Positions 13,636 through 22,003 of a stretch of 64,000 nt of DNA are shown one piece after another. The notes beneath the pieces were generated by a model. The model made no database searches and had not been told where the DNA came from. It worked only from the letters and a program-made list of their open reading frames with translations. A program made the position numbers and the translations under genes. The DNA lies in NCBI GenBank assembly GCA_035531755.1, contig DATKSK010000071.1:1-64000 (forward strand), given 5' to 3'. How positions within the stretch are numbered: position 1 is the stretch's first letter; every line of letters begins with the position of its first letter. The DNA comes from Acidimicrobiales bacterium (lineage in GTDB: Bacteria; Actinomycetota; Acidimicrobiia; Acidimicrobiales; UBA8190).

Positions 13636-15099
13636 TCAGGGCGTGAAGATGCTCTCGTGGGGACGGGCGGGCGGCGTGCTGAAGAACGGACGCACCCGAG
13701 TCTCCATGAGCTCGTCCACGGTCGAGGCCGACAGCGGGTCGTGGAGCAGGTCGTGGTCCTCGTCGGGATCGTCGTGGAGGTCGAAGAGCTGACACGGGGT
13801 GCCGGCATCTTCGTCGACGATGATCTTGTACCGGTCGGTCTCGAACGAGGCGAAGCCCCAGTTCTCGCTGACCGACACCGAACGCGCCGGCGGCGGGACG
13901 CCGTTCGCATAGCCGAGCAGGGACCGGCCCTCTCCCCCGGGCAGCTCGGGAGCACCGGCGATCTCGCGGACGGTGGCGGGTACGTCGAAGTGCTCGACCA
14001 ACGCGTCGACGACCGCTGGTGGGCATCCGCCCGGTGGGCGCACGATCAGCGGGATGCGCACCGCCGGCTGGTAGAGCACGCATTTCGACATGAGCCCGTG
14101 GTTGCCGCCCATCTCGCCGTGGTCGCTGGTGTAGATCACCCATGTGTCGTCGAGGGCGCCCTTCTGTTCGAGCGCCGCCAGAATGCCGTCCACGGCGTCG
14201 TCGATCACGGTGATGTCAGCACTGTATGCACGACGCATGCCGCGAATGGCATCGTCGGTCATGGTCTCGGTGTCCGACAACCACAGGAACGAGTTGAGCA
14301 GTGCCCCGTAGCGGCCCGTTCCGTCGACGGTGGGCCGACGTGTCGAGCGTGGCATCGACACCTCGACGTCGCGGTAGCGGTCGACTGCCGATCGGGGCGC
14401 ATCCCAGGGGTCGTGCGGTCCGGGGAAGCCGACGAACAGGAAGAAGGGCTCCGGACGGTCGTACCCGTCGATCCAACGGACCGCCTCGGCGCCGTGCCAG
14501 GCGTCGACGTACGCATCGAGTGGAACGGGCATCGGCGTGGCGTCCCACATGGGCACCCGCTTGGTGGCGTTCTGCCCGGTCTCGGCGTCGCCCTGGTAGC
14601 TGCGGTCGGCGATGTGCTGCAGGTACACGTCCAGCAGGCCCCGCTCGCGGAGGTGGTCGGTGTAGCGATTGGGTATCTCTCCGGGGAACTTGTCGCCGGT
14701 CTCCCGGACCTCGGTGAACCCCAGGCTGGTGAGGCGCCAGGCCAATTCGTCGATGTGTGCCGCCTGTAGGATCTCGTCGCGGTACAGGTGTGCCTTGCCC
14801 AGGAGGGCCGTGTGGTAGCCGGCCGAGCGCAACGCCCAGACGTAGGTCGGTGCATCGGGCGGGATCTCGGCCCAGTTGGTGTAGACGCCGTGATCCCTGA
14901 CGTAGCGCTCCGTCATGAACGAGGCCCGCGCCGGCATGCACAGCGGACCCTGGCACGACACCCGCGAGAACCTGACCCCTTCGGCGGCAAGCCGGTCGAG
15001 GGCCGGCGTGAGCACGCCGTCGTCCCCGGCACAGCCCATCATGTCGCCACGGTGCTGGTCCGACATGACAACCACGATGTTCGGTGCGCGCGACGTCAC
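13636..15099 (-). CDS. Sulfatase family hydrolase (formylglycine type)
   Basis: Type I sulfatases cleave sulfate esters with a formylglycine made from Cys or Ser. The sequence has the metal-binding start PNIVVVMSDQHRGDMMG, the modification motif LCMPARASFMTERY (C-x-P-x-R), GYHTALLGKAHLY, FFLFVGFPGPHDPWDAP and YTSDHGEMGGNHGLMSK, which supply the Ca-site and catalytic residues. About 487 aa from GTG 15099, where the family homology starts. The substrate could be choline sulfate, an arylsulfate or a phosphonate ester. No maturase gene is in view. The gene stands alone upstream of the acyl-CoA dehydrogenase. Confidence 0.9.
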   Translation of the reverse strand: MTSRAPNIVVVMSDQHRGDMMGCAGDDGVLTPALDRLAAEGVRFSRVSCQGPLCMPARASFMTERYVRDHGVYTNWAEIPPDAPTYVWALRSAGYHTALLGKAHLYRDEILQAAHIDELAWRLTSLGFTEVRETGDKFPGEIPNRYTDHLRERGLLDVYLQHIADRSYQGDAETGQNATKRVPMWDATPMPVPLDAYVDAWHGAEAVRWIDGYDRPEPFFLFVGFPGPHDPWDAPRSAVDRYRDVEVSMPRSTRRPTVDGTGRYGALLNSFLWLSDTETMTDDAIRGMRRAYSADITVIDDAVDGILAALEQKGALDDTWVIYTSDHGEMGGNHGLMSKCVLYQPAVRIPLIVRPPGGCPPAVVDALVEHFDVPATVREIAGAPELPGGEGRSLLGYANGVPPPARSVSVSENWGFASFETDRYKIIVDEDAGTPCQLFDLHDDPDEDHDLLHDPLSASTVDELMETRVRPFFSTPPARPHESIFTP

Positions 15100-15166
15100 T
15101 CTCGTCCTCCCGGGCTCGTCTGGGGCGCGGTCGGGAGCCCCGTCACCGCACCCGGGCTCCCCCACC

Positions 15167-16619: not shown

Positions 16620-17450
16620 TCAACACCCCAGCAGGCCGGCGAGTGAGCCGCTCGGGCACGCTGCTCCTGTCCAGGTGACGCCGGAGAGCACCGCACCGGC
16701 CAAGTTGGCGCGGACGAGCGTGGCGTTGGTCAGGTTGGCATTGGTCAGCGTGGCCGCCATGAGCTTGGCCTTGAACAGCGTGGCGCCGGTGAGGTTGGCG
16801 CGGGTGAGGTTGGCGCCCGAGAGCACGGCGCCTTCGAGATGGCCGTTCGTGAGGTTGGCGCCGACGAGGTCGACGCCTCGCGCCTTGGCGTACACGAGCC
16901 TGGTTCCGAGGAGCTTCGCCCCGCTGAGGTTGGCGCCGACGAGCGCGGTGCGGATCAGGTTGGCACCCGAGAGCGTGGCCGTCGACAGCACGGCGTGGTC
17001 GAGATGGGCCCTGAGGAGGCTGGCGTTGGTGAGGTTCGCACCGGTGAGGTTCGCACCGGTGAGATGTGCGCCATCGAGCGTCGCGTTCGACAGCGCGGCG
17101 TTGCCGAGTGTCGCTCCGGTGAGGTTGGCGCCGGTGAGGTTGGCACTGGTCAGTGTGGTGCCGGACAACACGGCGTGGACGAGACGGGTGCCGCTGAGTT
17201 TGGCGCCGGCCAGGTTGGCTCCTGACAGCGTGGCGCGGGCCAGGTTGGCTCCTGACAGGTCGGTGCCCGCCAGCTGGGCCCCGGTCAGGTTGCAGCCGTG
17301 GAGGTCCACGAGGGGGGCAGGCGTGGCCTGGCAATTGACTGCGGCCGATGCCGGCGAGGCCAGGCCCACGGTCACCGAGAAGGCGCCGACGAGCGCGACA
17401 CCCAGGCCGATGGCGACACGCATCCTGTGGAATCCCAAGCGGCGGACCAT
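16620..17450 (-). CDS. Secreted pentapeptide-repeat protein
   Basis: After a signal peptide (VAIGLGVALVGAFSVTVGLASPASA) the chain is almost entirely A(N/T)L-x-x pentapeptide repeats (LTGANLTGATLGNAALSNAT), predicting a right-handed quadrilateral beta-helix of about 200 residues. Such helices act as rigid binding rods; some mimic DNA, but this one is exported, so gyrase protection is unlikely. A Cys pair (VNCQATP, LHGCNLTG) caps the N-terminal end and another (TGAACPSGS, GLLGC) the C-terminal end. ATG 17450. 276 aa. The near-repetitive DNA reflects the protein repeat. The partner is unknown. Confidence 0.9.
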   Translation of the reverse strand: MVRRLGFHRMRVAIGLGVALVGAFSVTVGLASPASAAVNCQATPAPLVDLHGCNLTGAQLAGTDLSGANLARATLSGANLAGAKLSGTRLVHAVLSGTTLTSANLTGANLTGATLGNAALSNATLDGAHLTGANLTGANLTNASLLRAHLDHAVLSTATLSGANLIRTALVGANLSGAKLLGTRLVYAKARGVDLVGANLTNGHLEGAVLSGANLTRANLTGATLFKAKLMAATLTNANLTNATLVRANLAGAVLSGVTWTGAACPSGSLAGLLGC

Positions 17451-17705
17451 GGCGTCAGGACCTCCTCGAGTCCAGAGTTGACCATCCCGCTCCGAGACCA
17501 TGAATCCCCAAATCTGACGAACTGCGCCGGAATGCTCCGATGTGACGTTCAGCACTCGAATCCTCACTCCGGGAGATCGCACCGGCGGAACGAGGAGCGG
17601 GTACGCAGACCCCTGCGGTCGACGACGGCGTCGTCGTCAAAGACCTCGTCCCGGTCTGACGGTCTGACGCGCTGACGGTCTGACGCGCTGGGCGGCGCTC
17701 GACGC

Positions 17706-19201: not shown

Positions 19202-20035
19202 TCACCCCTGTGCTTCGGGTGGGTGGGCCGGGGCGTCGGGACGTCGGCCATCAGCTCGGAGGGTCCTGACCGGCCGGGCATGGGTGCACTGCGCGGTCGC
19301 CCGATTCGCCGTGACCACCTCGACGCCCTCGAAGTCTGCCAGCGTGCTGATGCGGAAACGGTTGTCGCGGGCCGTCGCCCGCTCCATGGCATGGGCGCGG
19401 GTCGAGTAGTAGCGGTCGCGCCCGTAGCCCTCGCTCGTGGCGGCGTAGCTCGCCACGAGCACGCGGCGCGGTCGTGTGTCACGGTTCGCCTCGCTGAAGT
19501 GCGGAAGAAGGCCGGCGATGCACAGAGCGTCGCCGGGCGCCAGCTCGGCCGGCTCCCACGGCAGCGACGCCGCCGTATCGGCCACCACCACTCCCCGATG
19601 GTCGACGGGAAGCATCTCATCGACACCGGGCGCGATCCAGACGCACCCCGACGTGGCGCTGCACTCGTCGATAGCGAGCAGGACCGACATCACGCGGACG
19701 ACGCCGGGATAGGCGAGGAGGTCCTGGTGCGGGCTGAACCCGGCGCCACCAGGCTGCTTGTAGTTGAGCTTGTCCTTGAAGTCGGCCACGCTCACGCCGA
19801 GCTCGGCGGCCGCCACGGCCGACAACGACCCCCGGACGAGCCCGGCGAAGCCGTCGTGGCAGGCCGACACGTTCTCCGTTCGGCAGATGGCCTCGCCGGT
19901 TGCGGTCTGCTCGGCGTAGTGCCCCCACCGGTGACTTCCCGGCGGCCAGGCCTCCACGTCCGAGGCCCAGGTCCGCAACGCCTCCAGGTCGGCGCCGGTG
20001 ACGACGGCTCGTCGGACCGGTGACAGCGGCGTCAA
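19202..20035 (-). CDS. PhyH-type 2-oxoglutarate dioxygenase, PhnY/TmpA-like
   Basis: Fe(II)/2-oxoglutarate oxygenase of the phytanoyl-CoA dioxygenase fold. The iron ligands are visible as H-x-D in GFSPHQDLLAYP and a distal His in GLLPHFSEANRDTRPRRVLV, whose RR would bind 2-oxoglutarate. The gene starts with TTG at 20035, overlapping the stop of the PhnZ-like gene (TTGA), so the two are cotranslated. PhnY hydroxylates 2-aminoethylphosphonate at C1 and PhnZ then cleaves it; this pair has the same order of chemistry. The true substrate could be another phosphonate (compare TmpA). 277 aa. Confidence 0.8.
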   Translation of the reverse strand: MTPLSPVRRAVVTGADLEALRTWASDVEAWPPGSHRWGHYAEQTATGEAICRTENVSACHDGFAGLVRGSLSAVAAAELGVSVADFKDKLNYKQPGGAGFSPHQDLLAYPGVVRVMSVLLAIDECSATSGCVWIAPGVDEMLPVDHRGVVVADTAASLPWEPAELAPGDALCIAGLLPHFSEANRDTRPRRVLVASYAATSEGYGRDRYYSTRAHAMERATARDNRFRISTLADFEGVEVVTANRATAQCTHARPVRTLRADGRRPDAPAHPPEAQG

Positions 20036-20565
20036 TGCGCCGACTCCCGGAGCAGCGGCAGCCAGTACGCCAGTGGAGGGACGACCCGCCCGAGCACTTT
20101 GGCGGCGTCGTCGGCCCGGCGCAGCACCACGGCTGCGGCCCCCACTGGCGACGCCGCGAAGGCGGCGGCGTCCTCGGGTCCGAGGGGGCCACCCTGGAGC
20201 GCCAACGTCCGCACGCTGTCGGCGGAGAGGCGCGAGCGATACGACGCGTCTGTGGTGACCAGATACCGCTTGGCCGGCACATGCGCCTCGACCAGGCCTG
20301 CCACCCGGTCACCGAGCAGGGCGCGGACGCAGGCGGCACCCAACCGGCCGTGATCGTCGTCGGAGCCGAACCGGTGCCCGATGTCATGGACCAACCCGGC
20401 CAGCTGGAGCTCGACGTCGTCGGGCCGCACCGTCGACAGCTCGAAGGCGCACTGCAACCCGTGGTCGAGCGCGCTCAGCCGGTCGGACCGGTCAGACCGT
20501 CGTGCGGGCTCCGCCGGCTCGGACGCGAGCGAGCCGAGGACGTCGACGAGCTCGGAGAGGGTCAC
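20032..20565 (-). CDS. PhnZ/TmpB-like HD-domain diiron oxygenase for phosphonates
   Basis: The sequence follows the phosphonate-associated HD family: LDHGLQCAFEL, LAGLVHDIGHRF, DDHGRLGA, AHVPAKRYLVTT, RLSADSVRTLALQGGP and LRRADDAAK. These match the His/Asp ligands of the mixed-valent diiron site and the substrate-binding Lys (HVPAK) of PhnZ. The Tyr and Glu found 10 and 7 residues before the first His ligand in PhnZ appear here as Asp and Asp. GTG 20565 is chosen because it starts 5 bases after the upstream stop. 177 aa. It should split a hydroxyphosphonate to phosphate plus a carboxylate. Confidence 0.83.
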   Translation of the reverse strand: MTLSELVDVLGSLASEPAEPARRSDRSDRLSALDHGLQCAFELSTVRPDDVELQLAGLVHDIGHRFGSDDDHGRLGAACVRALLGDRVAGLVEAHVPAKRYLVTTDASYRSRLSADSVRTLALQGGPLGPEDAAAFAASPVGAAAVVLRRADDAAKVLGRVVPPLAYWLPLLRESAH

Positions 20566-20569
20566 GGGG

Positions 20570-22003
20570 TCATGCCACCGAGCCGGGAGGCCGGCCGATG
20601 CCGCCGTCGACGAGCAGCATGTCGCTGAGGGTCCTGTCGGCATGACGTGAACGCCACGTCAGCATGGCCTGGGCATGCTCGAGCACGACGCCGGGATCCT
20701 CCACCTCGGTGCGCCACGTCGGGTCGGCGGCCAGGTCGAAGCAGCGCCAGTCACCCCCGCCGTACTGGACGTAGGCGGCCGCGTCCGAACGCACCACGGT
20801 CACGTGCTTGGACTCCAGGCGACGGTCCCACGGCCAGGAGTGCGGGCCGAAGGGGATGTATTCCCAGCGCCAGTCGTACTCCCAGTGAGCGGCGTCGCGC
20901 CACCACGGAGGCTCCTCCCCGGCGAGAAAGCCGGAGAGTGGCAGCCCGTCGCACTGTGCGGGGACATCGACCCCCACCGCCTCGCAGATGGTGGGAAGCA
21001 CGTCCACGTTCTCGGTGAAGGCCGACACGACGGTGCCGTGCGTGCTCGGCCGGCGCGGGTCGCGGACGATGGCGGGGATGTGGTAGCTCGCCTCGAAGGG
21101 TCCTCCCTTGCCGAGCCGGCCCTGGTCCCCCAGCTGCTCGCCGTGGTCGGAGGTCACGACGACGAAGGTGTCGTCCCACATCCCGAGCGTGTTCAACGCG
21201 TCGAGCACCCGCCCGAACTGCTCGTCCACGTCGGAGACCATCCCGAAGTACTGCGCCCGCAGCTCCCGCAGGCGCCGCTCGTCGGCGGGGGCCGCCGGCG
21301 CGGCGAGTCTGCCGCAGAACGGCATGTCGCGCTCGGGCGCGGTCAGCGGCGGCGGCACATCGTCGGGGTCGTAGGCCTTCGACCACCGACCGGCGGCGGC
21401 GTACGGGGGGTGCGGGCGCCAGTAGCTGGCGTGGGCGAACCATGGCCCGTCGCGACGCTCGAGCCAGCCGACGAGCGCGTCGGTCAAGAACGCCGAGACG
21501 CCGTGCTCGGCGGGACGGTCCGGCTCCGTGGCCAGGGCCGTGTCGCCGTCGGCGGGCACGTCGTAGCCCAGCCGACCGAGCCACGCCCGCCACGCGTCCT
21601 GATCGTCGGGAAGGTCCAGCCCGACGTCGAAACCCGGGGGGAACCCCTGGTACGACGACAGCCGAGGGTCGTCGGGTCCCGTCGCCACCCGGGGGTCGAT
21701 CCCCTGGTCCGCGTAGCCGAACACGGTCGGCACGTACCCGGCGCGCCGCGCCACCCGGGCCACGTTGTCGAAGCGGTCGTCGAGGGGCGTGCCATTGCCC
21801 ACCACCCGGTTGTTCATCTGGTAGGTGCCGGTGTAGAGGCAGGCCCGCCCGGGGGCGCACGGCGACGCCTGGCTGTAGTGGCGCGCGAACCGCACGCCGT
21901 GCGCCGCCAGGCGGTCGAGGTTGGGCGTGCGGACGACCGGGTGCCCTGCCGCCGAGAGGCAGTCACCGCGGAACTGGTCGAGCGTGACGACAAGGACGTT
22001 CAT
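20570..22003 (-). CDS. Phosphonate monoester hydrolase-like (sulfatase superfamily)
   Basis: The start MNVLVVTLDQFRGDCLSA and the formylglycine motif YSQASPCAPGRACLYTGTY (C-x-P-x-R) place it in the phosphonate monoester hydrolase/phosphodiesterase branch of the sulfatases. YTGxYxMNxR is typical of that branch. The second metal half is present as VVTSDHGEQLGDQGRLGKGG with the conserved Lys. 477 aa. Its neighbours are PhnZ- and PhnY-like genes, 4 bases downstream, so it may release a phosphonate from an ester before oxidative C-P cleavage. ATG 22003 follows family homology. Confidence 0.85.
   Translation of the reverse strand: MNVLVVTLDQFRGDCLSAAGHPVVRTPNLDRLAAHGVRFARHYSQASPCAPGRACLYTGTYQMNNRVVGNGTPLDDRFDNVARVARRAGYVPTVFGYADQGIDPRVATGPDDPRLSSYQGFPPGFDVGLDLPDDQDAWRAWLGRLGYDVPADGDTALATEPDRPAEHGVSAFLTDALVGWLERRDGPWFAHASYWRPHPPYAAAGRWSKAYDPDDVPPPLTAPERDMPFCGRLAAPAAPADERRLRELRAQYFGMVSDVDEQFGRVLDALNTLGMWDDTFVVVTSDHGEQLGDQGRLGKGGPFEASYHIPAIVRDPRRPSTHGTVVSAFTENVDVLPTICEAVGVDVPAQCDGLPLSGFLAGEEPPWWRDAAHWEYDWRWEYIPFGPHSWPWDRRLESKHVTVVRSDAAAYVQYGGGDWRCFDLAADPTWRTEVEDPGVVLEHAQAMLTWRSRHADRTLSDMLLVDGGIGRPPGSVA

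Follow-up and report, generated by a model that had tools for sequence, protein, structure and literature searches.

The closest described relatives of the HD protein studied here are PhnZ and TmpB, for which a review treats a YxxE clamp as a feature of both enzymes and expects HD oxygenases to share their traits closely enough for more of them to be found (PMC8177086). Two other activities of phosphonate catabolism are relevant to the locus. PbfD oxidises 2-aminoethylphosphonate (AEP) and N-methyl-AEP to phosphonoacetaldehyde for PhnX (PMC10590968, where TIGR03364 is also discussed), and phosphonate monoester hydrolases (PMH) have been proposed to free phosphonates from marine polysaccharides (PMC5649143).

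We analysed a stretch of 64,000 nucleotides, hereafter the window, which is part of a 3.3-Mb genome (96% complete) whose nearest named relatives in a collection scan are Acidimicrobiales metagenome-assembled genomes (MAGs). The minus strand carries a three-gene operon that encodes, in order, a PMH-like protein (22003-20570, ATG start, 477 amino acids), a PhnZ-like HD diiron protein (20565-20032, GTG start) and a PhnY-like Fe(II)/2-oxoglutarate hydroxylase of the PhyH type (20035-19202, TTG start, 277 amino acids). The genes abut or overlap: 4 nt separate the PMH stop from the HD start, and the HD stop and the PhyH TTG share a TTGA at 20032..20035 (minus strand) that couples these two genes, in agreement with the tight coupling claimed by the first-pass annotation. 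The genes flanking the operon are not evidently linked to phosphonates, promoter and terminator scans detected no element, and a viral-contig scan returned no relatives. Elsewhere in the window (16620-17582, minus strand) a pentapeptide-repeat-like protein with many A-N-L-T/S-G-A-N-L units is encoded. A matching locus is found in two genomes of the same family (G005 and G011), with upstream P450, TetR-type and other genes also in common. All three operon genes are there in G005; G011 has PMH and HD, and a PhyH relative was not found on its contig. The PMH orthologues beside HD are 79% identical in G005 and 81% in G011.

From the gene order, the conserved residues, the clade and the gene neighbourhoods described below, we infer every reaction of a pathway, the reaction order and the substrate. 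In the reading that we favour, and hold to be somewhat better than an even bet, the operon would be a cytoplasmic route recovering phosphate from an esterified phosphonate by means of an HD oxygenase with changed gating. The PMH-like enzyme would release the free phosphonic acid from a phosphonate monoester, such as the head group of a phosphonolipid or a phosphonate bound to a polysaccharide. Next, the PhyH enzyme would hydroxylate the carbon adjoining phosphorus to give a 1-hydroxyphosphonate, and the HD diiron oxygenase would cut the C-P bond, yielding phosphate and a carboxylic acid, in the manner of a PhnY/PhnZ pathway supplied by an ester hydrolase. This oxygenase would keep the diiron site and the phosphonate pocket and would lack the tyrosine that occupies Fe2 before substrate binding, so that oxygen gating would have to differ. 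Searches of the window genome for a PhnD-type phosphonate binding protein and for PhnJ found neither. Counting against this reading are the negative PhnD search, the negative maturase searches described below and the scores of all three proteins, each under its NCBIfam cut-off.

The PMH-like protein belongs to the alkaline phosphatase superfamily, formylglycine-sulfatase type. It matches the sulfatase family PF00884 (1.2e-49) and, in a PDB search, 4uph (1.2e-108) together with the PMH structures 2vqr, 2w8s and 4upk; its score to the PehA model NF045661, 378.3 bits, is below the cut-off of 900. It keeps the motif C49APGR, in which Cys49 (21857..21859, minus strand) is the predicted formylglycine nucleophile, and the metal-site residues D9-Q10, D286-H287 and K299. 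The CxPGR motif is present in 17/17 neighbourhood PMHs spanning that column. The enzyme is probably cytoplasmic, because its catalytic domain starts at once and leaves no room for a signal peptide. For the maturation of its cysteine, neither a formylglycine-generating enzyme (FGE, PF03781) nor an anSME was found in the 96% complete window genome. The sole PF03781 match is an EgtB-like ergothioneine enzyme (C27:1130-1828, L155) followed by an EgtD-like gene, and its EgtB-like nature ruled it out as a formylglycine-generating enzyme. Three PMH-bearing relatives in which the PMH has its Cys (G005, G011 and G337) likewise gave no clear FGE or anSME; an anSME is present in G159, and FGE in those alphaproteobacterial genomes that were tested. 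About 4 kb from the operon (13636-15165, minus strand) a second enzyme of the sulfatase fold, bearing a CMPAR motif, is encoded. It is arylsulfatase/choline-sulfatase-like (222 bits, below cut-off), in a genome in which no formylglycine maturase was found.

The HD protein matches PF01966 and, in the PDB search, PhnZ (8.5e-17) and TmpB (4e-14). It scores 123.2 bits to TIGR03276 (Phn-HD), under the curated cut-off of 214.6, and 81 and 76 bits to NF052439 (the Gimesia HMP dioxygenase model) and to the TmpB model respectively, against cut-offs of 300 each. In the alignment with PhnZ, residues matching the diiron ligands H34, H58, D59, H80, H104 and D161 are all there, as are those matching K108, H62, S126, T129, Q133 and R158; the full His/Asp ligand set and the lysine attributed earlier to this protein were therefore recovered one by one. 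At the clamp position, where PhnZ has Y24-x-x-E27, we read D25-R-S-D28 (20482..20493, minus strand), which places Asp 10 and 7 residues before the first His exactly as first annotated, and the lid between H64 and H72 is shortened to RFGSDDD (20353..20373, minus strand), 7 residues compared with 17 in PhnZ. The absence of the Tyr clamp is real. How the loop aligns column by column is uncertain because it contains a private insertion of about 6 residues and because the closest orthologues (68-69% identity) differ, with Glu/Arg at -10/-7 in L050 and Glu/Val in L051. These E/R and E/V pairs rule out Asp/Asp as a conserved new clamp. The loop is the least conserved part of the protein and, given its private insertion, the Asp residues might be taken as loss of function in a decaying gene. 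We regard decay as very improbable, however, in view of an HD dN/dS of 0.25-0.36 against relatives, the retention of all ligands and the overlapping reading frames. All three operon genes are under purifying selection, the dN/dS being about 0.15-0.19 for PMH and 0.27 for PhyH, with dS partly saturated.

The missing tyrosine is not peculiar to the window. Among 110 aligned HD proteins the clamp loop has no Tyr in 84 and a Tyr in 26, counts from a collection scan that was seeded with the clade itself and that give no clampless share among PhnZ-like proteins. The lid is 7-12 residues long in all 84 no-Tyr proteins and 17-19 in 23 of the 26 Tyr-bearing ones. H34, H58, D59, H80, H104, D161, K108, S126, Q133 and R158 are invariant in 84/84 no-Tyr sequences, and the Tyr-bearing set too (n = 26) keeps the diiron ligands, K108, S126, Q133 and R158 without exception. 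Near the clamp site the no-Tyr proteins usually have an acidic residue (E at -9 in 32/84, S-x-E in many). In a tree built without the clamp and lid columns, 82 of the 84 sequences form a single clade (SH-aLRT 99), marked by Q52, G55 and A160, the last replacing the Trp that adjoins the last Fe ligand; on this phylogeny the Tyr loss is ancestral to the 82 sequences. The two others (L069 and L041) have WDE instead of Tyr and a lid of 10-11 residues and are placed outside the main clade, possibly a second loss. All clade members scored against TIGR03276 are below its cut-off. The clade spans Actinomycetota and Alphaproteobacteria. It includes freshwater actinobacteria with an HD-PhyH arrangement, a PMH-HD group in Acidimicrobiia, Caulobacterales, Sphingomonadales, Hyphomonadales and Maricaulales, and members in Nocardia, Streptomyces, Kribbella and Nonomuraea for which PMH or PhyH was not found next door. 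A contig labelled as a Bifidobacterium breve MAG (L130) has an HD-PhyH locus that almost matches that of the freshwater actinobacteria, and this bin is probably mislabelled or contaminated. A literature search, with most subscription journals outside its reach, found no description of the clampless clade or of PMH-HD coupling.

The gene neighbourhoods of the clade were then compared. Clampless HD genes adjoin PMH in 16 loci, which answers the search for coupling in relatives, and adjoin PhyH in 17; the window, L051 and L073 have both nearby. The same three functions are joined in other lineages, as two PMH-PhyH-HD clusters contain a Tyr-bearing HD (L066, L067). In six alphaproteobacterial genomes that have PMH-HD, a search for a PhyH relative found none, so there is no obligate link between the three steps. 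In Alphaproteobacteria a GDSL esterase often comes next after PMH-HD, as in L081 and L088, where the order is LysR, PMH, HD, GDSL esterase and MFS transporter (the best model of the L081 LysR is phn_lysR). A DUF5690 protein, which may carry the substrate across the membrane, adjoins clampless HD in Caulobacterales (L080:6431-7819, also L094 and L109). The copy number of PMH was also considered: it is single in the window genome and in nearly every searched PMH-bearing genome (the G462 gene is split in two), so that its adjacency to HD is not the product of many paralogues and, seen in 16 loci, the coupling is not due to chance. An HD relative occurs in 14 of 60 relatives and a PMH (E<=1e-60) in 9; both occur in 7, compared with 2.1 expected (hypergeometric p ~2.5e-4, worked by hand with relatedness ignored), and in some of these genomes, e.g. 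G021 and G038, they are on different contigs.

Several loci bring clampless HD genes together with known phosphonate genes. In a Caulobacter cluster (L100:2428-7667) a TIGR03364 oxidase (426 bits) and PhnX (306 bits, cut-off 220) lie directly upstream of PMH, clampless HD and a GDSL esterase, so that two routes of C-P cleavage adjoin. In Streptomyces (L127:5950-12374) the HD gene adjoins a 2-aminoethylphosphonate ABC transporter (PhnS 492, cut-off 310; PhnU 403, cut-off 247) and a PbfD-type oxidase (TIGR03364 332, cut-off 285), and homologues of these transporter and oxidase genes are beside HD in L149, likewise Streptomyces; a PhyH gene was not found in either of these two loci. Elsewhere the HD gene overlaps or lies near the C-P lyase genes PhnK/PhnL/PhnM (L093, 1491-4883; L125, L111 and L129), with a PhyH gene besides in L111 and L129. 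Since such associations recur in different parts of the tree, phosphonate catabolism is the most probable role of the clade, and we consider it very likely. One could still imagine a locus devoid of C-P chemistry, with PMH acting on phosphodiesters, HD as a phosphohydrolase on the resulting monoester and PhyH incidental: phosphohydrolases make up the majority of HD proteins (PMC8177086), phosphodiesters too are cleaved by PMH enzymes (PMC5649143), most alphaproteobacterial genomes searched gave no PhyH relative and a type I phosphodiesterase is found in the L109 neighbourhood. The invariance of the PhnZ pocket residues K108, S126, Q133 and R158 in 84/84 sequences and the C-P lyase, PhnX and AEP transporter neighbours make this quite improbable.

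The clade neighbourhoods include clear AEP-type contexts, which bear on the substrate. The first-pass annotation had described an oxidative phosphonate-degradation operon and had taken the replacement of Tyr and Glu as pointing to a substrate other than 2-aminoethylphosphonate. The recurrent neighbourhoods lend good support to oxidative phosphonate degradation coupled with an ester hydrolase. The non-AEP inference is weak, because the Tyr loss is clade-wide and ancestral, members adjoin PhnS/PhnU, a PbfD-type oxidase and PhnX, and there is usually still an acidic residue close by. The AEP-type neighbours in L100, L127 and L149 rule out clamp loss alone as a mark of a non-AEP substrate. The same transporter, oxidase and PhnX neighbours, together with the persistence of an acidic residue near the clamp site, argue for an ordinary substrate: from lipids or polysaccharides PMH would free 2-aminoethylphosphonate or R-1-hydroxy-2-aminoethylphosphonate, the roles of PhyH and HD would be those of PhnY and PhnZ, and the Tyr loss would alter oxygen gating only. 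This is a special case of the esterified-phosphonate route and a real contender, at about one chance in three. Also in its favour, natural sources are on record for R-HAEP, in an amoebal polysaccharide, and for HAEP, in lipids of Bdellovibrio (PMC8154272), and natural R-HAEP, being a PhnZ substrate, could account for the HD genes of genomes in which PhyH was not found. It fits less well with the window operon itself, which adjoins no AEP-specific gene, and with its hydroxylase.

The PhyH protein matches PF05721 (6.5e-21) and scores 156.8 bits to the methylphosphonate hydroxylase model NF052437, below the cut-off of 500. The facial triad H103, D105, H179 and the 2-oxoglutarate-binding R190 are invariant in 27/27 homologues. 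At 35 columns that are otherwise conserved, the window and L051 proteins depart from the remaining 25, with changes that include PHRSG -> PHFSE/PHYSQ beside an iron ligand, and they sit on a long branch (2.7 substitutions per column). This strong divergence counts against the ordinary substrate, in favour of which, on the other hand, the PhyH partners of freshwater clampless HD proteins have the active-site signature common to PhyH paired with Tyr-bearing HD. The divergent hydroxylase is a better hint of a changed substrate than clamp loss, and the substrate of the window and L051 enzymes may well differ. Methylphosphonate is one candidate, and would be another special case of the esterified-phosphonate route: PMH would release it from an ester, PhyH would form hydroxymethylphosphonate and HD would yield formate and phosphate, no amino-binding Glu being required. 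The best curated relative of the PhyH protein is indeed the methylphosphonate hydroxylase PhnY of Gimesia, the HD protein scores the Gimesia model slightly above TmpB (81 against 76 bits), and methylphosphonate esters occur in marine polysaccharides (PMC5649143). These scores are, however, far under the cut-offs and near those for other PhnZ types, NCBIfam gave no AEP-hydroxylase model to compare against, and the NF052437 match is unspecific since other PhyH proteins of the set score higher than that of the window; we therefore find this substrate unlikely, at about one in five. A bolder proposal, to which we give only slightly more credit (about one in four), is that of a widespread HD oxygenase branch lacking the Tyr clamp, in which the lid is short, the pocket would be opened by W160 -> Ala, the reduced diiron site would be guarded otherwise and bulkier or still-esterified 1-hydroxyphosphonates would be accepted, the co-diverged hydroxylase of the window supplying a phosphonate new to oxidative degradation.

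If the clade is active, at least 82 sequences keeping all but the clamp would show that the gate is dispensable. Motif- and cut-off-based surveys would undercount oxidative phosphonate users, because the clade members tested fall under the TIGR03276 cut-off. Esterified phosphonates have been reported in marine dissolved organic matter (PMC5649143), and the coupling to PMH offers a testable genetic route for their use in soil and freshwater bacteria.

Compared with known PMHs (RlPMH 2vqr, BcPMH 2w8s, 4upk, 4uph and PehA NF045661), the window PMH has the same CxPxR nucleophile and DQ, TSDHGEQ and LGK motifs and is similar in length. It differs in its low score (378 bits for a cut-off of 900), in its genetic coupling to oxidative C-P cleavage and in that no maturase was found in its host genome. 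The Gimesia PhnY/PhnZ1 methylphosphonate pathway resembles the operon in that, among curated models, NF052437 fits the window PhyH best (157 bits) and the window HD reaches 81 bits to NF052439, but both proteins are far below the model cut-offs (500 and 300), and the described pathway names no ester hydrolase (PMC10574752), unlike the window operon with its PMH. TmpB (6npa) resembles the window HD in sequence over 140 residues and has the same HD oxygenase ligands; it has a Y30/E33 clamp (PMC8177086) which the window protein lacks, and the latter scores 76 bits for a cut-off of 300. PhnZ (HF130_AEPn_1, 4mlm/4n71) and TIGR03276 Phn-HD proteins have the same H...HD...H...H...D ligands and H62, K108, S126, T129, Q133 and R158, and both PhnZ and the window HD have an adjacent PhyH hydroxylase gene. 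In the window HD, however, Tyr24 is absent, Glu27 is not aligned, the lid has 7 residues instead of 17, the clade markers W160 -> Ala, V52 -> Gln and A55 -> Gly are present, the gene is coupled to PMH and the score is 123 bits for a cut-off of 214.6. As the clamp is lacking and the score stays under the family cut-off, we file the protein, on its sequence, as a sister variant of PhnZ and not as PhnZ itself.
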